Source: Aristaeella lactis
GTDB lineage: Bacteria > Bacillota > Clostridia > Christensenellales > Aristaeellaceae
DNA: 64,000 nucleotides
Direction of reading: 5' to 3'
Assembly: GCF_018118585.1 (NCBI RefSeq)
Contig: NZ_CP069421.1
Coordinates: 2,294,001 to 2,358,000, forward strand
Below, piece by piece: positions 19,522 through 36,928 of the stretch. Position numbers and translations under genes: made by a program. The notes under the pieces were generated by a model. It worked only from the letters and a program-made list of their open reading frames with translations. It made no database searches and was not told the DNA's origin. Every line of letters begins with the position of its first letter. Position 1 is the stretch's first letter.

Positions 19522-19639
19522 GCTGGTAAGTGAAATATTGAGCAGCATAGCTGCTCAATGTGAAATACGCCTTCGGCGTGTGAAATATCTGCTTCGCAGA
19601 TATGAAATATAGGACTTCGTCCAATGTGATATATACTTC
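19522..19639 (+). repeat. Hairpin array 2
   Basis: Begins GCTGGTAAGTGAAATAT and ends ATGTGATATATACTTC. Hairpins: TTGAGCAGC-ATA-GCTGCTCAA, CGCC-TTC-GGCG, ATCTGC-TTC-GCAGAT and AGGAC-TTC-GTCC, joined by (A)TGTGAAATAT linkers. The lead-in GACGAGATGCTGGTAAG is also present before array 3. Confidence 0.8.
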
Positions 19640-27032: not shown

Positions 27033-27410
27033 TGTCATCTCGACCGGAACGAAGTGGAGTGGAGAGATCTATCCCCCTCACCTGCTCAGATCTGCCCACT
27101 CCGGATTCATTTTATTAATCAGCATTTCCTTTTTACTTCTGCTCCATCTTTTGAGTTGTTTTTCTCTTGCTATGGCGCTTTTGATATCATGACAGCTTTC
27201 GCACCATACAAGCTTGTGCACGTTATACTTTTCCGTAAACCCTGCCAGTATGCCGGTTTTATGCTCGTACACCCTTCTGGGCAGATTGTTTGTCACGCCT
27301 ATGTATAAGGCATGATTATTGTTACTCGCCATCATATAAACATAGTATGTGTTCATGCTGCGTTTTCAGATCTCTCCACGCGGGCACAAATGCCCTTGGT
27401 CGAGATGACA
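27033..27410 (-). mobile_element. GIY-YIG element with 13-bp terminal inverted repeats
   Basis: TGTCATCTCGACC (27033-27045) and GGTCGAGATGACA (27398-27410) are perfect inverted termini. Each continues inward to a GGAGAGATCT motif (27061-27070; inverted at 27368-27377). Inside is only the GIY-YIG gene. The termini are the same sequence as the repeat scattered through the window, so the repeats may be solo ends of, or cargo moved by, such an element. Confidence 0.6.
27078..27356 (-). CDS. GIY-YIG endonuclease (UPF0213-like)
   Basis: A 92-residue single-domain GIY-YIG protein: YYVYMMASNNNHALYIGVTN, then RRVYEHKTGILAGFTEKYNV, LVWCES and AIAREKQLKRWSR. It has the usual Tyr, Arg and Glu active-site candidates. 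Proteins of this size nick or cut DNA. The stop is 8 bp from the left repeat end and the ATG about 10 bp from the right repeat end, so the gene fills the space between inverted repeats. Confidence 0.9.
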   Translation of the reverse strand: MNTYYVYMMASNNNHALYIGVTNNLPRRVYEHKTGILAGFTEKYNVHKLVWCESCHDIKSAIAREKQLKRWSRSKKEMLINKMNPEWADLSR

Positions 27411-28226: not shown

Positions 28227-28255
28227 TTGACATCTTTACAAATTGTACCAATAAT
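28227..28255 (+). promoter_or_regulatory. Promoter of the RiPP-like cluster
   Basis: -35 TTGACA (28227-28232), 17-bp spacer, -10 AATAAT (28250-28255), 51 bp before the peptide start. AATTGTA occurs twice (28241 and 28254) and could bind a regulator. The remaining intergenic stretch (27992-28226) is AT-rich with no other feature seen. Confidence 0.55.
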
Positions 28256-28306
28256 TGTAAACGGCAAAGAAAATGTACAGACTAATGCGGAAAGGAGGAC
28301 GCAATC

Positions 28307-28396
28307 ATGGAAAAGTATGAAGCTCTGGAAATGGAAGTGGTCCGCTTTGAAGCGGAAGATGTTATTTGCGCAAGCCAGCAGTATCCCACTAAGTAA
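28307..28396 (+). CDS. Putative 29-residue RiPP precursor peptide
   Basis: A very strong AAAGGAGG site precedes an ATG. The peptide begins MEKYEAL, continues EMEVVRFEAEDVICAS and ends QQYPTK. The acidic, hydrophobic-patterned leader resembles short Clostridia peptides found next to PqqD genes (recollection, not checked). One Cys, one Ser and one Thr near the C-terminus are candidate modification sites. A hairpin follows the stop and the modifying genes begin 126 bp on, the usual layout for a highly expressed precursor. Confidence 0.65.
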   Translation: MEKYEALEMEVVRFEAEDVICASQQYPTK

Positions 28397-28407
28397 GTAG
28401 CATCTCC

Positions 28408-28437
28408 GGCTGCACGGTTTACCCGTACAGCCTTTCT
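28408..28437 (+). terminator. Partial terminator between precursor and modifying genes
   Basis: GGCTGCACGG (28408-28417) pairs with CCGTACAGCC (28423-28432) with one mismatch, then TTTCTG. The weak U-run fits partial read-through, giving more precursor than enzyme mRNA. Confidence 0.6.
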
Positions 28438-28521
28438 GACCCATCCCCGGCATGTCTGCTGTTTATAATAGAAAATCACCTTGTTCCGCGCGACCGTTAA
28501 TGCGAAAGGAGCCCCTCCATC

Positions 28522-29265
28522 ATGACAGGAACCTACCTGATCGGAGATCAGATGATCGGAATCAGTTCCCTGTATTCCGCTGTACATGATTACTGCCGGG
28601 ATTACCGGGCAGAGGGAGCACCCGTTTTTTTTGTGGAGACAACCCCGGAAGACCTGGTTTTTGAGCGGGAACGCTCCGAACAGATTGGCGAGGTGATCCC
28701 CGTCCAGTCCGAAGAGAACCGGAACAAAGAGCTGGAACTGCTGGCGGTTTACCGGAGGATCGCGGAACAGATGCCCTTCCGGGATACATTCCTGTTTCAC
28801 GGATCCGCCGTTGCGGCGGACGGCGCCGCTTACCTGTTTACCGCCAGAAGCGGAACCGGCAAAAGCACCCATACCCGCCTGTGGCGGGAGATGCTTGGGG
28901 ACCGCGCCGTGATGGTGAACGACGACAAGCCCCTGATCCGCCTTACCGAAGACGGCGCGGTTGTTTACGGCACGCCCTGGAACGGAAAGCACCGCCTGGG
29001 CACAAACATCTCGGTTCCGCTGAAGGCCGTCTGCATCCTCGAGCGCGCGAAGCAGAACACGATCCGCGCCATAACCCGCGAGGAAGCGTTCCCCATGCTG
29101 ATTCAGCAAAGCTACCGTCCCCTGGATCCGGCAGCACTGGCAAAGACCCTGTCCCTGGTGGACCGGCTGAGCCGCACCGTTTCCCTGTACCGGCTTGGAT
29201 GCAACATGGATCCGGAAGCAGCGGAACTGTCCTACAACATCATGAAGGAGGCCACCCGGCAATGA
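28522..29265 (+). CDS. HPr kinase/PEP-carboxykinase-like protein of RiPP type
   Basis: A 247-residue protein with FLFHGSAVAA (about 90-99) and P-loop SGTGKSTHTRLW (110-121), then NDDKPLIR and GTPWNGKHRLG, as in HprK-like kinases of lasso-peptide clusters. Those kinases phosphorylate the peptide C-terminus; here the substrate would be the 29-residue peptide (inference). Start follows AAAGGAG. It overlaps the PqqD gene by ATGA. Confidence 0.85.
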   Translation: MTGTYLIGDQMIGISSLYSAVHDYCRDYRAEGAPVFFVETTPEDLVFERERSEQIGEVIPVQSEENRNKELELLAVYRRIAEQMPFRDTFLFHGSAVAADGAAYLFTARSGTGKSTHTRLWREMLGDRAVMVNDDKPLIRLTEDGAVVYGTPWNGKHRLGTNISVPLKAVCILERAKQNTIRAITREEAFPMLIQQSYRPLDPAALAKTLSLVDRLSRTVSLYRLGCNMDPEAAELSYNIMKEATRQ

Positions 29266-29522
29266 AACTGAAAAAAGAATTCCTGTGCCACACGACAGAT
29301 CAGGAGGCCATGCTGGTTCCTACCGGACGGGCCGGTTTTGCCGGCCTGGTCAGGGGCAACAAGACCCTGGGCATCATCCTGAACCTGCTGGAAAAGGAAA
29401 CCACCGAGGCGGAGATCATCGCCGCGATGAAGGCGCGTTTTGACGCGCCGGAAGAGGTGCTGGCCCGGGACGTCCGGACCGCGCTGCAGAACCTGCGGGA
29501 CGTCGGCGCGCTGGCCGAATAA
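29262..29522 (+). CDS. PqqD-family RiPP recognition protein
   Basis: An 86-residue winged-helix protein (FAGLVRGNKTLGIILNLLEK, TTEAEIIAAMKARFDAPEEV, LQNLRDVGALAE) typical of PqqD/RRE proteins that bind precursor leaders and present them to enzymes. The ATG at 29262 overlaps the kinase stop; AAGGAGG lies inside the kinase gene. Its presence is the main reason to read the locus as RiPP-like. Confidence 0.88.
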   Translation: MKLKKEFLCHTTDQEAMLVPTGRAGFAGLVRGNKTLGIILNLLEKETTEAEIIAAMKARFDAPEEVLARDVRTALQNLRDVGALAE

Positions 29523-29526
29523 GAAG

Positions 29527-29967
29527 ATGGATTATGAATCATACCTGGCGGAGCACGACAGCCTGACCTACCGGATGACAGGCGTGAGCATGCTGCCGCT
29601 GCTTCGGGAAGGCCGGGATCTTTTCACCGTGCGCAGGAAAGAGCCCGGGGAGAAGTGCCGGCCCGGGGATGTGGTGCTGTACCGCAGGCCGCCGAACCAC
29701 TATGTGCTGCACCGGGTCATGCAGATCCGGAATGAAGATTACGTCATTCTGGGGGACAACTGCATCGCGCGGGAATACGGCATCCGGGACGAAGATATCC
29801 TCGGCGTGATGACTGGTTATGTCCGGAAGGGAAAGACGCACAGCACGGAAGAATTGCCATACCGGCTGTATGCTTTTTTTATGCTGCGGCTGAGCAGCCT
29901 CCGGATCTTCCTGAAACGCTGCGGGGGCAAAATCCGGAAGATTGCCGGGAGGATCGTCCATGCGTAA
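29527..29967 (+). CDS. S24/S26-type signal peptidase-like protease
   Basis: A 146-residue protein with the S26 nucleophile motif MTGVSMLPLL (Ser21), GDVVLYRRP, a His base candidate in VLHRVMQI and ILGDNCIAREYGI. The Ser-His arrangement is like SipW/archaeal type peptidases. A basic, weakly hydrophobic C-terminus may bind membrane. In this cluster it probably removes the peptide leader. Starts 4 bp after the PqqD stop and overlaps the exporter gene by 8 bp. Confidence 0.83.
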   Translation: MDYESYLAEHDSLTYRMTGVSMLPLLREGRDLFTVRRKEPGEKCRPGDVVLYRRPPNHYVLHRVMQIRNEDYVILGDNCIAREYGIRDEDILGVMTGYVRKGKTHSTEELPYRLYAFFMLRLSSLRIFLKRCGGKIRKIAGRIVHA

Positions 29968-31627
29968 TCATACCGTTGCCTGGCTCTGGCGGACGCCCGG
30001 GCGGAAAAAAGGCTATATTGCCGCGCTGACCGCGGCGCAGGTCCTGACCGGGTTCCTCAGTGTCGGTTTCGCGTTGCTTACACGGAGCGTTGTCAACAGT
30101 GCTGTGAGCAGGGACGGTGCCGCATTCCGGCATTACGCGCTGCTTCTCCTGATCCTGACGGCGGGCTCCCTCCTGCTGCACATGGTCAACCGATGGCTGA
30201 CAGAGCTTTCCAAAGCGCAGCTTGAAAACCTGTTCAAGCAGCGGCTGACCGCGGCCATCCTGCGGAAAGAGTACGCGGCCGTAAGCGCCGTTCACTCCGG
30301 GGAATGGATGAACCGGCTGACAAACGATACGCGCATTGTTGCGGAAAACTATACAGAGCTGATTCCGGGCCTCTCCGGCATGGGGGTCCGGCTTGTTGCT
30401 GCCGTCACGATGCTGATTGTGCTGGACGGCCATTTCACCGCGATCCTGCTGCCCGGCGGCGCGGCAATGATCGCACTGTCCGTTTTGCTGCGGGGAGTGC
30501 TCAAACGCCTGCACACCCGGATGCAGGAATCGGACGGGAAACTGCGGATTTTCCTGCAGGAATGCATCGGAAACCTGATGATCGTCAAATCCTACGCGGC
30601 GGAAGAACATGCGGAACAGGAAGCCGCAAACCGGATGCGCACCCACCTGCGGGACCGGATGCGGAAAAACAACCTGGCTAACCTGGGCACCTCCGGCGTG
30701 GCCGTGGCGATCAACGCGATGTACGTTTACGGCATCATCTACTGTGCCCGGGGTATTATGTCCGGCTCCGTTTCCTACGGCACACTGACCGCCGTGATGC
30801 AGCTGATCGCCCAGATCCAGGGTCCCATTACCAGCATCAGCGGATACCTGCCGCGATGGTTTGCCATGCTGGCCAGCGCCGAGCGCCTGATGGAGGCGGA
30901 GCAGCTGGAAGATGAACAGACGGAAGAGAGAATGACGCCCGCACAGATCCAGGACTTTTATGACAGCCGTTTCCAGGCCCTCCGCCTCCGGGACGTCTGT
31001 TTCACCTATGCCGGGGAAGACCGGCAGGAGATCCTGAAGGACCTCAGCCTGGAAATCCGGAAGGGCGAAACTGTCGCCTTCTGCGGGCACAGCGGCTGCG
31101 GGAAATCCACCGTGCTGAAGCTGCTGCTGGGTATGTACCCGCCGGACAGCGGGGAAATCACCGTGGACGGACAGCCGCTGACAGCGGCCTGGCGCGGGCT
31201 CTTTGCCTATGTTCCCCAGGGTAACGCCCTGCTGCACGGAACCATCCGGGACATTGTCTCTTTCGCGGATCCGGCGCATGCCGGGGATGAAGAACGCCTG
31301 GGGCAGGCTCTGCGAACCGCCTGCGCGGAGGAATTCGTTTCCGGGCTGGAGCATGGTGCGGATACGGAGCTGGGCGAACGCGGCGCAGGCCTGTCCGAAG
31401 GCCAGACGCAGCGGGTGGCCATTGCGAGGGCCATCTTTTCCGGACGGCCGGTGCTGCTGCTGGATGAATCCACCAGCGCCCTGGACGCGGAAACAGAAGA
31501 ACAGCTGCTGAAGAACCTGCGCGGCCTGACAGACAGGACCGTGATCATCGTGACGCACCGGCCGGCGGCGCTCGCCATCTGCGACCGGGTGCTGCGGTTT
31601 ACCGAAGAAGGAGGATGCGAAGCATGA
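29960..31627 (+). CDS. ABC exporter of the RiPP-like cluster
   Basis: A 555-residue half-transporter. Membrane domain covers about residues 15-290; the nucleotide-binding domain has Walker A GHSGCGKST, a signature-like LSEGQTQRVAIARAIF and Walker B VLLLDEST. There is no N-terminal C39 peptidase domain, so leader cleavage must come from another protein such as the S26 peptidase. Start follows GGGAGG. Overlaps the nucleotidyltransferase gene by ATGA. Confidence 0.92.
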   Translation: MRNHTVAWLWRTPGRKKGYIAALTAAQVLTGFLSVGFALLTRSVVNSAVSRDGAAFRHYALLLLILTAGSLLLHMVNRWLTELSKAQLENLFKQRLTAAILRKEYAAVSAVHSGEWMNRLTNDTRIVAENYTELIPGLSGMGVRLVAAVTMLIVLDGHFTAILLPGGAAMIALSVLLRGVLKRLHTRMQESDGKLRIFLQECIGNLMIVKSYAAEEHAEQEAANRMRTHLRDRMRKNNLANLGTSGVAVAINAMYVYGIIYCARGIMSGSVSYGTLTAVMQLIAQIQGPITSISGYLPRWFAMLASAERLMEAEQLEDEQTEERMTPAQIQDFYDSRFQALRLRDVCFTYAGEDRQEILKDLSLEIRKGETVAFCGHSGCGKSTVLKLLLGMYPPDSGEITVDGQPLTAAWRGLFAYVPQGNALLHGTIRDIVSFADPAHAGDEERLGQALRTACAEEFVSGLEHGADTELGERGAGLSEGQTQRVAIARAIFSGRPVLLLDESTSALDAETEEQLLKNLRGLTDRTVIIVTHRPAALAICDRVLRFTEEGGCEA

Positions 31628-32745
31628 TGACGGAGGAAAACAAAAAGGTGCTGGACGACCTGGTTTATCTCGCGGCCTGCGCGGTGAACGGGCAGGTTCC
31701 GGAGAAAAGCCGTACAGACGGAATGGATCTTTCCCTCGTATATGAAGCCGCGCAGAATCATAAGCTGGCGGCGGCCGCCGGAATGGCGCTGGAATCCGCC
31801 GGCATCCGGAACGAGGCTTTTGTGCAGGCCGTTGCCAAGGCTATGCGGAAAAACGCCCTGCTGGATGCGGACCGGGCGGAGCTGACCCGGAAGCTGGAGG
31901 AAGCAGGCATCTGGTACATGCCGCTGAAGGGCGCCATCCTCAAGGATCTGTATCCCCGCTACGGCATGCGCGAAATGGCGGACAACGATATCCTGGTGGA
32001 CGCCGCCCGGGCAAAGGATGTCGGCCGGATCATGCAGGAACTGGGGTTTGAAGCGGAGGAGACCGGAAAAGGCCATCATGATGAATACCGGAAACCGCCT
32101 GTCAGCAATTTTGAGATCCACCGGATGCTGTTCAGCGGCATGGACAGCCACGTCTTCCACGAGTATTACACGGGCGTGGAAAAACGCCTGATTCCGGATA
32201 AGGAAGGGTCTTTCGGACGCCATTTCTCAACAGACGACCTTTACCTGTACCTGACCGCCCATGAATACAAGCACTACCGGCACGGCGGCACCGGGATCCG
32301 TTCCCTGCTGGACACCTATGTGTTTCTGAAGCATTACGGAAACGAACTGGATATGGCCTATGTGACGGCGGAAGCGGAAAAAATGGGAACCGCTGATTAT
32401 GAAAAAAAGAGCCGGGAGCTGGCCCTCCGGTTGTTCAGCGGAGAGGCGCTGACAGAGGCGGAACAGGAGATGCTTGCCTATTATGCCTCCAGCGGCACCT
32501 ACGGTTCATATGAACAAAAGGTGGTGAACGAGATCAATTCCTTCGGCGGCGGTTTCCGCGGAAAGCTCCGTTTTTTCCGATCCCGCCTTTTTATGCCGCT
32601 GGAAGATATCCGCTATGCTTATCCGGTAGTCTACCGGCATAAGATCCTGCTGCCCTTCCTGTATGTCTACCGGATCATCAAGGGACTGACAACCCGCAGG
32701 GGCGTTACCATGGCCGACCTGAAGGCGCTGAAAAAAACGATGTGA
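31624..32745 (+). CDS. Nucleotidyltransferase-fold protein (NTP_transf_5-like)
   Basis: A 373-residue protein with YMPLKGAILKDLYP and REMADNDILVD (metal-binding D-x-D region of nucleotidyltransferases) and LTAHEYKHYRHGGTGIRSLL. Such proteins occur in lasso and other RiPP clusters. It may nucleotidylate the peptide or act on a phosphate added by the kinase (inference). Start follows GAAGGAGG, overlapping the exporter stop. Confidence 0.83.
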   Translation: MMTEENKKVLDDLVYLAACAVNGQVPEKSRTDGMDLSLVYEAAQNHKLAAAAGMALESAGIRNEAFVQAVAKAMRKNALLDADRAELTRKLEEAGIWYMPLKGAILKDLYPRYGMREMADNDILVDAARAKDVGRIMQELGFEAEETGKGHHDEYRKPPVSNFEIHRMLFSGMDSHVFHEYYTGVEKRLIPDKEGSFGRHFSTDDLYLYLTAHEYKHYRHGGTGIRSLLDTYVFLKHYGNELDMAYVTAEAEKMGTADYEKKSRELALRLFSGEALTEAEQEMLAYYASSGTYGSYEQKVVNEINSFGGGFRGKLRFFRSRLFMPLEDIRYAYPVVYRHKILLPFLYVYRIIKGLTTRRGVTMADLKALKKTM

Positions 32746-32756
32746 GGAAAAAGCAA

Positions 32757-33407
32757 ATGATCATCAGAGAGACAAACCCGGGAGACCTGAAGCTGGTTAA
32801 CGAAATGGCACGGCTGCACCTCAGCACCTTTCCGGACTACTTCCTTTCCATGCTGGGGCTCCCTTTCATGAAGGCCGTTTACCGGGAGTATATTGAAGAT
32901 CCGAACGCCGGTATCGTCATCGCGGAAGAAGACGGAAACCTGGTAGGGCTTCTGTCCTACATGGACGGCACCTCCCAGGTGCCGGTCAACGTGATCAACA
33001 GCCGCCCGCTCCTGTTCCTGTACAGCGCCGCCCGCCTGATCCTGCGCAAACCGTCCCTGTACCGGAATGTGAAAAATCTTTATGAATCCTGCAAAAAGGC
33101 AAAATCAAAGGTTTATTCCCGGAAGTTTATCGAGCTGGGTTCCTTTGCCCTCTATCCGCACCTGAGGGGAAACGGCACCGGAACAAAAATGCTGGATTAC
33201 ATCAAGGCTATGCCGGACTACAATACCTGCGACTGCGTCAGCCTGACCACCGCCTCGGATGACAACGACCGGGTCAACCTCTTTTACCTGAAGCGCGGCT
33301 TTGTTCCCGTCGGCATGGTTACCATGCCCGAAGGAAAGTGTATGACCATATACCAGTACAGCCCGAATCCCACAAAGTACCGGTCCGCCGGCGTGATAGC
33401 GCAATAA
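32757..33407 (+). CDS. GNAT-family N-acetyltransferase
   Basis: A 216-residue protein starting MIIRETNPGDLKLVNEMARL. The acetyl-CoA loop region is LGSFALYPHLRGNGTGTKML and the C-terminal strand is FYLKRGFVPVGMVTM. The start at 32757 follows GAGG; an in-frame GTG at 32742 overlaps the upstream stop. It may acetylate the peptide or provide self-protection. Last gene of the cluster. Confidence 0.82.
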   Translation: MIIRETNPGDLKLVNEMARLHLSTFPDYFLSMLGLPFMKAVYREYIEDPNAGIVIAEEDGNLVGLLSYMDGTSQVPVNVINSRPLLFLYSAARLILRKPSLYRNVKNLYESCKKAKSKVYSRKFIELGSFALYPHLRGNGTGTKMLDYIKAMPDYNTCDCVSLTTASDDNDRVNLFYLKRGFVPVGMVTMPEGKCMTIYQYSPNPTKYRSAGVIAQ

Positions 33408-33483
33408 AAATGTTGTAAATATACCCCATTCTTGTTACAATTTCATCGCCATCCAAAACAGAAAAATGAAAGAGGGCTTTGCC

Positions 33484-34815
33484 ATGGCCGAATCCAACAT
33501 CAACAAAAAGAAATATATGGTTTTTGACCTGGTGAAGATCCTGCGGGAGCATACGGACCGGCTGCACCCCATGAAGCAGAAGGAGCTGGTGGACCGGCTG
33601 CACGAAGCCGGCTATTCCACGGACCGCTCCACGGTGCGCCGTACCATCACCGATCTGGTGCTGGATCCGGAAAGCCGCATCCGCTCCGTTTCCAACACCG
33701 CCCATGACGAGAAGGACTCGGACTATGAAACCTATTACTCCGGGCTCTACTATGACCAGGAGTTTTCCGACGCGGAGCTGCGCTGGCTCATCGACGGCAT
33801 CCTCTACAGCCGGAACGTGCCCCACGAGGCCCGGAAGGACCTGCTGGAGAAGCTGTGCAACCTGGGGAACGCCCACTTCCGGAAGAACCTGAACCTGAAT
33901 AAAATCCGCCGCCTGGCAGCGGATGAGCCGGTAAACCCGGAGCTGTTTGAGAACATCGACCGGGTAGGCCGGGCCATCGACAGCGGCAAAAAGATCTCCG
34001 TTGTCTACAACAGTATGGGAACGGATTTCACCCTGCACCCCCGGTGGAACTCCGCCCACCTGCTGAACCCCTACGCCATGGTCATCCGCAACGGGTTCTA
34101 TTACCTGATCTGCAACAACGACCACCACACCACCCTGACCGTTTACCGCATGGACCGGATGACGGACGTGCAGATCGAGGAAAAGCTGCCGGTCCGCCCC
34201 GTGCGGGAGCTGGACGGCTTCCATGAGGGCTGGAACCTGCAGGAGTTCATGGAGCATAACGCCAACATGGCTTTCGGTGATCCGGAGCGGATCACCTTTG
34301 ACTGCGCCGAAAAAGGTGTGCCCATCGTGATCGACGCTTTCGGCAAAGGTGCCTCCTTCCAGGCAAAAAAAGACGGACAGTATGAATGTACCGTCCGGGT
34401 CCCTGCTTTTGATATGAAGCTTTTTGCCCTGCAGCACAGCGAGTTCGTCCGCGTCACCTCCCCAGCGGAACTGGCGGATGAGATCCGCGGTGAGCTCCAG
34501 GCTGCTCTGGACAAATATTCGGAAGAGTCTTCAAACGGCAATAAAGCCGCCGGTTCCGGAGGCACAGCGGCGGAAAGGGTTCAGTATTATGAAGCAAAGC
34601 TGGACCGCGCGCTGAAGGCGCTGGACGCCTTTGAGCAGGTCCTTCCGGAAGTGGAGGAGCTGGATCGCTATTACGCCTCTCCCGAATGGAAGGAAGACTT
34701 TGCCGCGGACGAAGCCGGGCAGCTCCCGAAAGACCTGAAGCGGGGTGTGCTTTCCGAAGACGGGATTTACAACCTGCTGGAGCGGGTCCGGGAAATCACA
34801 GGCGGGCCCAGATAA
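33484..34815 (+). CDS. WYL regulator fused to a DUF4298 domain
   Basis: A 443-residue protein: N-terminal wHTH (QKELVDRLHEAGYSTDRSTV), WYL domain at about 165-250 (KKISVVYNSMGTDFTLHPRW, LLNPYAMVIRNGFYYLICNN), WCX-like part, then DUF4298 (ASPEWKEDFAADEAGQLPKD, LSEDGIYNLLERVREI). DUF4298 is usually a stand-alone protein; the fusion is unusual. Start MAESNINK follows GAGGG. It lies 76 bp after the acetyltransferase and could regulate the RiPP-like cluster. Confidence 0.87.
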   Translation: MAESNINKKKYMVFDLVKILREHTDRLHPMKQKELVDRLHEAGYSTDRSTVRRTITDLVLDPESRIRSVSNTAHDEKDSDYETYYSGLYYDQEFSDAELRWLIDGILYSRNVPHEARKDLLEKLCNLGNAHFRKNLNLNKIRRLAADEPVNPELFENIDRVGRAIDSGKKISVVYNSMGTDFTLHPRWNSAHLLNPYAMVIRNGFYYLICNNDHHTTLTVYRMDRMTDVQIEEKLPVRPVRELDGFHEGWNLQEFMEHNANMAFGDPERITFDCAEKGVPIVIDAFGKGASFQAKKDGQYECTVRVPAFDMKLFALQHSEFVRVTSPAELADEIRGELQAALDKYSEESSNGNKAAGSGGTAAERVQYYEAKLDRALKALDAFEQVLPEVEELDRYYASPEWKEDFAADEAGQLPKDLKRGVLSEDGIYNLLERVREITGGPR

Positions 34816-36817: not shown

Positions 36818-36928
36818 GCTGGTAAGTGAAATACGACTTCGTCGTGTGAAATGTTTGCTGCGCAAACGTGAAATGTGCCTTTCAGGCACGTGAAATATTG
36901 GCCTGCGGCCAATGTGATATTTACTTTT
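36818..36928 (+). repeat. Hairpin array 3
   Basis: Begins GCTGGTAAGTGAAAT, ends ATGTGATATTTACTTTT. Hairpins: ACGAC-TTC-GTCGT, GTTTGC-TGC-GCAAAC, GTGCC-TTTCA-GGCAC and TTGGCC-TGC-GGCCAA, linked by GTGAAAT. It is preceded by GACGAGAAGCTGGTAAG, as in array 2. Confidence 0.82.

Follow-up and report, generated by a model that had tools for sequence, protein, structure and literature searches.

Among described peptide pathways, those closest to the locus reported here are the lasso peptide clusters of the paeninodin and pseudomycoidin type found in Firmicutes, which combine an HprK-like kinase, a split B1 protein of the PqqD family, a nucleotidyltransferase-like protein such as PsmN, an ABC (ATP-binding cassette) exporter and a short precursor peptide (PMC9266682, PMC7533575). 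In the pseudomycoidin system, phosphorylation by PsmK is reported to be followed by modification of the phosphate by PsmN (PMC9266682). We have analysed a locus with similar components in a 64,000-nucleotide stretch of the Aristaeella lactis genome (contig NZ_CP069421.1, referred to here as the window; positions are those of the window, and labels such as L032 or G000 are our own handles for loci and genomes). The locus consists of a 29-codon peptide gene followed by genes for an HprK/PEPCK-fold kinase, a PqqD-family protein, an S26B-type protease, an ABC exporter, an NTP_transf_5 protein and a GNAT acetyltransferase, all on the plus strand. It differs from the lasso clusters in that it is without the C and B2 proteins and has an S26B protease, in that its peptides have no conserved C-terminal Ser and have tails that could not be threaded, and in that many of its relatives pair their peptides with giant secreted proteins. 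We consider it likely that the locus encodes a pathway for a ribosomally synthesized and post-translationally modified peptide (RiPP) without any known class-defining cyclase, working in the manner proposed below and with a role at the cell surface. There is good support for a pathway of RiPP type that has none of the known class-defining enzymes and is conserved over many Clostridia.

The precursor peptide and its family

The peptide gene (MEKYEALEMEVVRFEAEDVICASQQYPTK; 28307..28396, plus strand) is preceded by a strong ribosome binding site, AAAGGAGG (28291..28298, plus strand), which lies 8 nt 5' of the ATG and is kept in relatives; both the 29-residue peptide and its ribosome site had been recognized in an earlier note on this DNA, made from the letters alone. 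A family profile searched against the 3.45 Mb genome gave a single match, the window peptide itself (E 1e-15), and homologues occur in relatives. The 29-codon open reading frame is thus a genuine gene, and its peptide has the character of a RiPP precursor. It is composed of a conserved leader that runs through an xxS motif (MEKYEALEMEVVRFEAEDVICAS; 28307..28375, plus strand) and a variable tail, QQYPTK (28376..28393, plus strand), which would form the core, or the C-terminal portion, of the product.

Members of the window's genus share an almost unchanged leader, MEKYExLEMEV[VI]RFEAEDVICxS, which is joined to the tails QQYPTK (window), QQWPTK, QRWPTK, SGLPQK, SWSWQQ and FWAA. These tails vary among tandem copies as well as among species of the genus: three copies in one genome (G175) carry QQWPTK, SGLPQK and FWAA, and two in another (G251) carry QQWPTK and SWSWQQ. 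Over the whole family the leader approximates YExxEMEVIxFExEDVITxS, with a Ser three residues past EDVI in 39 of 43 members. Many family tails are 4–12 residues long, and several (FWAA, NELPFEKV, NELPILPAN, GELPFVPAE) contain neither Ser nor Thr. The general hallmark of a RiPP is found here: a short precursor, encoded next to modifying enzymes, in which the leader is conserved and the core varies. Two other family peptides, from Faecalibacterium prausnitzii (L136, NZ_PRLD01000018.1, 10155-10298 and 10631-10795), have long Gly-rich tails and are located approximately 1.5–2 kb downstream of a kinase gene.

Enzymes encoded in the operon

Six genes follow the peptide gene, and neighbouring genes among them either overlap by 4–12 nt or lie 4 nt apart. 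The gene set and its tight packing are as the earlier note described them; its count of seven genes after the peptide is reached only if the peptide gene is included. The first of the six (28522..29265, plus strand) gave no significant Pfam match and weak matches to HprK-related families, but its predicted structure (pLDDT 94) matches PEPCK and HprK, which agrees with the initial description of the gene as HPr-kinase-like. Residues H93, K114 (in the P-loop), N133, D135 and K136 are invariant, and D134 is present in the close clade (NDDKP), giving an HprK fold with the catalytic His-Lys-Asp-Asp residues of an HprK-like peptide kinase. Lasso kinases are reported to use a His-Lys-Asp-Asp catalytic set (PMC9266682), and the invariant residues of the window kinase, as we have assigned them, are consistent with that motif. 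Models for HPr-rel-A (TIGR04352, TIGR04353), HprK-related kinase B (TIGR04355) and the SynChlorMet protein ScmC (TIGR04249) which represent uncharacterised kinase-PqqD cassettes, showed weak similarity to the window kinase and PqqD protein, scoring far under their curated cut-offs (26/125, 21/200, 15/200 and 19.7/35 bits).

The second gene (29262..29522, plus strand) encodes a PqqD-family protein (PF05402, E 6e-11) that is conserved in relatives and supplies the leader-binding RiPP recognition element (RRE). By the rules of antiSMASH, a PqqD-type element that has no recognised class enzyme beside it would be assigned to the fallback class 'RRE-containing', and many such clusters were recorded in a survey of rumen isolates (PMC13289728). 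It should be noted that this class is a detection rule alone, which brings with it no peptide, no chemistry and no link to surface proteins.

The third gene (29527..29967, plus strand) encodes a signal-peptidase-like protein, the putative leader peptidase, that matches TIGR02228 at E 1.6e-10, a score under the cut-off of that model, and that has no N-terminal membrane anchor. Across 16 relatives we observed that S21, H62, R63 and D77 are invariant, corresponding to a GxSMxP serine, an LHR histidine and a GDN aspartate. We take this Ser/His/Asp pattern to be that of the S26B (SipW/Sec11-like) proteases, and the earlier assignment to S24/S26 peptidases can be refined to the S26B (Ser-His) type. 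The ABC exporter encoded next (29960..31627, plus strand) contains permease and ATPase segments and no C39 peptidase domain, so that the S26 protein is the obvious candidate for leader removal.

The fifth gene (31624..32745, plus strand, with a possible start at 31615) encodes a nucleotidyltransferase-like protein of the NTP_transf_5 family (PF14907, E 2.6e-40) in which the DxD pair D120 and D122 is invariant. The last gene (32742..33407, plus strand, with an alternative ATG start at 32757) was identified as a GNAT acetyltransferase by domain match. In our survey of cassettes a GNAT gene was found beside the cassette only in the window's genus, and we therefore regard it as accessory there; the product may be acetylated, as the earlier note suggested. 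Judged by their conserved residues, the kinase, the S26 protein and the NTP_transf_5 protein look active. Sequence searches of the PDB with these three proteins gave no meaningful match, and models of anti-phage defence systems gave none.

Comparison with lasso and radical SAM pathways

Since the HprK-like kinase, PqqD (B1), NTP_transf_5 protein and ABC exporter are held in common with the paeninodin and pseudomycoidin systems (PMC9266682, PMC7533575), the locus might be a lasso cluster of that type whose C cyclase and B2 protease have been lost or are encoded elsewhere. However, no Asn-synthase domain was detected in the six cassette proteins, and the B2 family (PF13471) is absent from the cassette; in a search of 33 genomes it was represented by weak fragments of 20–26 bits at distant positions, one of them just above the cut-off. 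The S26B protease occupies the place of B2. Tails of 4–12 residues, including QQYPTK, are too short for a 7–9 residue ring plus a tail, and the conserved Ser is positioned at the end of the leader and not at the C-terminus, where PadeK, ThcoK and PsmK find their conserved substrate Ser; no such C-terminal Ser is conserved in the family members compared. The same arrangement also recurs across many genera. A lasso peptide cluster is thus largely refuted by the missing cyclase, the missing B2 protein in the cassette and the short tails, and we hold even the version with displaced genes to be highly improbable.

A second possibility is that the peptide is modified in trans by a radical SAM enzyme whose gene lies at another place in the genome, which would make it a sactipeptide- or cyclophane-like RiPP. 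Radical SAM genes do accompany more distant kinase cassettes, two at 1.10 Mb of the window's own genome (L032), and some peptide genes of the same family lie next to a radical SAM gene (L075). Yet those genes adjoin Cys-rich or Nif11-like precursors of their own, a same-strand radical SAM-like gene was found near only about 5 of 80 kinase loci, and the window tails contain no Cys. Sactipeptide and ranthipeptide clusters contain the radical SAM gene, and the cassette has none. In the aggregate, we allow this explanation a slim chance.

The region at 1.10 Mb just mentioned (G000:C1:1094000-1112000) is a second kinase/PqqD/S26/ABC region of the window's genome. It has three genes that resemble the kinase, and besides its two radical SAM proteins it encodes several precursors of Cys-rich or Nif11-like type. 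Clusters of this kind in the same bacterial family (L032, L033, L042) resemble the window cassette in their homologous kinase, PqqD, S26 and ABC proteins and in a leader whose end carries a related, Ser-containing motif; they differ from it in having long Cys-rich or Nif11-like precursors and a radical SAM maturase.

The statement in the earlier note that lasso cyclase, B2 protease and radical SAM genes are absent from the cassette was upheld by these searches. The note had named as fatal to its proposal a cyclase or radical SAM gene that is consistently present elsewhere; none emerged across the surveyed loci. Searching the literature by gene combination, by leader motif and by the names ScmC and HPr-rel-A gave nothing relevant beyond the lasso papers, with most subscription papers and preprints outside the coverage; within it, we found no description that matches this gene set, in keeping with the note's remark that it knew of no such family.

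Distribution and linkage of the peptide and the kinase

Relatives of the kinase were matched in at least 595 stretches of DNA, of which 587 were confirmed, and the best 80 loci were kept for the survey. Nearly all of these 80 are from gut and rumen Clostridia, to judge by their record titles. A conserved short open reading frame, looked for in related clusters as a check on the original proposal, is indeed present: the peptide family is found beside the kinase in 25 of the 61 loci with ample flanks, and its matches lie upstream of the kinase on the same strand in 38 of 43 cases. The leader motif that the earlier note proposed to look for beside PqqD and HprK-like genes recurs beside the kinase in these 25 loci. 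In 30 genomes sampled from loci without an adjoining peptide, 28 encode the peptide at another position, with up to 13 copies per genome. Among genomes of the window's family the co-occurrence of peptide and kinase was 9/18 versus 2/42 (Fisher p 1.3e-4, with shared ancestry uncorrected). The enzymes would often serve, in trans, more than one peptide of the same genome.

Proposed working of the pathway

We favour a RiPP-type pathway because of the conserved leader, the variable tail, the tandem precursors, the PqqD protein, the kinase, the S26B protease and the exporter without peptidase, and to this extent the earlier proposal of a RiPP without a known class enzyme is sustained. The phosphorylation and nucleotidylation that it also envisaged are kept here as conditional steps; its cleavage by an S26-type protease followed by export likewise gains the invariant active-site residues and the absence of a C39 domain, while the steps themselves stay conditional. 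What we observed directly is the gene content, the conserved active sites and leader, the variable tails and the genomic linkages; the chemical steps, their order, the cleavage site and the role we infer as follows. The PqqD protein would bind the leader (motif YxxxxMEVxxF) and present the peptide to the HprK-like kinase, which would most likely phosphorylate the conserved Ser of EDVI-xx-S, the likely phosphosite because several tails are without Ser or Thr. By analogy with PsmK and PsmN of pseudomycoidin, the NTP_transf_5 protein may then add a nucleotidyl or sugar group onto the phosphate. The S26B protease would cut the leader at or near the EDVI-xx-S motif, and the ABC protein would export a product of roughly 6–9 residues. 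Because its relatives are in many cases companions of surface proteins (see below), such a product would most likely be a ligand or a decoration of the envelope, active on the cell surface or close to it, and not an antibiotic.

Several considerations weigh against this scheme. The pathway is known here from its genes, and its product is a predicted one. Instead of being the phosphosite, the conserved Ser could occupy position P1 of the cleavage site, and the two are hardly compatible in one product: with the Ser phosphorylated, the cut should fall on its N-terminal side, and with the Ser as P1 of the S26 site, the phosphosite should be elsewhere. An S26 site with the Ser as P1 would agree with the small residues at -1 and -3. 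At the level of distribution, 36 of the 61 well-covered kinase loci have no family peptide next door, and some cassettes appear to be without S26, nucleotidyltransferase or ABC genes near the kinase, for which contig ends or distantly located genes may account in part. Finally, the genomes of the window's genus that were searched are without the surface-protein partner described below, so that a surface role may not extend to the window.

Association with large secreted proteins and stalks

In many relatives a gene for a secreted protein, about 500–2955 amino acids in length, lies directly 5' of the peptide gene. The N-terminal parts of these proteins are varied, and include leucine-rich repeats, InlB-type repeats, transglutaminase-like and GLUG segments; their C-terminal domain (CTD), of about 220 amino acids, is common to them (alignment A2). 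Across 30 genomes, 39 of 96 peptide genes start 14–199 nt past a CTD on the same strand, as compared to 0.009 expected by random placement. Sequence searches gave no convincing Pfam or PDB relative of the CTD, and its predicted model gave no convincing fold match (best Z 5.0 over 50 residues). By its sequence, the CTD is an undescribed domain on giant secreted proteins of gut Clostridia. Loci with a CTD include L154, L155, L156, L101, L132 and L138, and two genomes are rich in matches, G240 with 17 and G248 with 55, many of them partial.

The CTD and peptide genes are often followed by a gene for a surface 'stalk', a low-complexity lipoprotein or membrane protein that ends in ELPFVPV, a motif common to many peptide tails. 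Examples of stalk tips are VIELPFVPVG, PIELPFVPAF, YELPIIPVQ and VMPFVPAK. The motif is at the C-terminus when the stalk is anchored N-terminally and at the mature N-terminus when a C-terminal helix provides the anchor (L073, IDLPFVPYE). The triad of large protein, peptide and stalk is also found away from the kinase (L154, L155, L156). Tails often resemble the tip encoded in the same genome, as in GELPFVPAE and NELPILPAN, or in VDPFAG versus LLDPFE and FETPII versus YETPII; a part of these tail and tip readings covered plus-strand peptide loci only. For 17 tail-stalk pairs we obtained a score of 237, against 170 +/- 12.5 with shuffled tails and 195 +/- 15 with permuted stalks (p 0.0027); three of the 17 pairs were added once the motif had been noticed, and the first 14 alone give p 0.037.

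Since the peptides of many relatives are companions of large secreted proteins, the likely role shifts from that of a secreted natural product to one at the cell surface. More specifically, the peptide may be a ligand or tag for the CTD that competes with or replaces the ELPFVP-like stalks, with the enzymes fitting the peptide for display and with the window carrying a derived copy that has lost its protein partner. This proposal of surface-protein assembly is compatible with the RiPP-type pathway that we favour and is narrower with regard to role. The position of peptide genes directly behind CTD genes, the triads without an adjoining kinase, the motif shared by tips and tails and its appearance in both anchoring orientations all argue for it. 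However, binding of the peptide by the CTD is a step that we infer, the CTD model had no informative structural match, the three window-genus genomes searched gave no CTD, the tail-stalk test includes the late pairs noted above, and several multi-copy peptides (L128, L148 and those of the window's genus) have neither CTD nor stalk. We regard the proposal as a serious possibility, if somewhat short of an even chance.

A search for the CTD was negative in three genomes of the window's genus (G000, which is the window's own, G175 and G066) and positive in five other genomes of the window's family. The window operon has no stalk, and no protein of the window's genome other than the peptide itself ends in QYPTK. 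Because the window-genus genomes that were checked have no CTD partner, we describe the window as a stand-alone version of the system; its pathway either works without a surface partner or serves one that escaped recognition here.

The peptide could instead be exported as a signalling pheromone or a narrow bacteriocin, with the GNAT protein serving for tailoring or self-protection. The very short tails, which vary between close relatives, and the tandem copies are what such a peptide might show; yet the cassette encodes no sensor kinase or known peptide receptor, no immunity gene is conserved across relatives, and the WYL-domain regulator located 58 nt downstream has homologues in relatives that are only about 52% identical. 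We consider this explanation unlikely.

Returning to the RiPP-type pathway with a role at the surface, we tentatively suggest that CTD proteins, stalks with ELPFVP tips and enzyme-modified mini-peptides make up a system, not described before, by which gut Clostridia display proteins; its RiPP-like pathway would supply ligands or tags and not antibiotics, and the window would be a stand-alone branch of it. There is a fair chance that the surface-display reading would make the pathway one of a new kind. If correct, gut and rumen Clostridia would have a widespread RiPP-type pathway without the cyclizing enzymes that define the current classes, which genome-mining rules leave unclassified or overlook. 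Coupling to many large surface proteins would mean that the peptides serve structure or recognition at the cell surface, and would open to experiment the question of how surface proteins are held and displayed by Ruminococcus and Lachnospiraceae in the gut.

Promoter, stem-loop and neighbouring sequences

A sigma-70-like promoter for the peptide operon (28227..28255, plus strand; TTGACA-17-AATAAT, 11/12 consensus matches) is conserved upstream of the operon in G175, G066 and RUG111. The start of the cluster at 28227 in the earlier note corresponds to the -35 hexamer of this promoter, and the peptide gene itself begins at 28307. The weak hairpin that had been noticed after the peptide was confirmed as a stem-loop between the peptide and kinase genes (28408..28432, plus strand; -14.3 kcal/mol, z -1.8), which is not followed by a T run and the sequence of which is kept in three related genomes. 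It probably sets the ratio of peptide to enzyme expression or affects mRNA stability. A stem-loop 3' of a short open reading frame could also indicate a regulatory upstream frame or attenuator leader of the kinase operon. Against this, the amino acid sequence is conserved across many genera and tandem copies have altered tails, peptide genes occur far from the kinase behind surface-protein genes, and neither a run of regulatory codons nor a T run past the stem is present. The chance that the frame has such a function appears close to negligible.

The WYL-domain regulator referred to above, which has a DUF4298 tail (33466-34815, plus strand), has homologues 3' of the operon in three relatives, and their identity is far below that of the operon genes. 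Two copies of the Gut-1 RNA (RF01706) flank the cluster at 19528-19613 and 36824-36901, both on the plus strand, with scores of 54 and 61 bits. Between 26591 and 27621 a GC-rich repeat of 48 nt (core CGACCAAGGCCGCAGGCCGCG) occurs six times, in part as tandem units of 111 nt, and these repeats adjoin a short minus-strand open reading frame (27078-27356) that by eye is GIY-YIG endonuclease-like.

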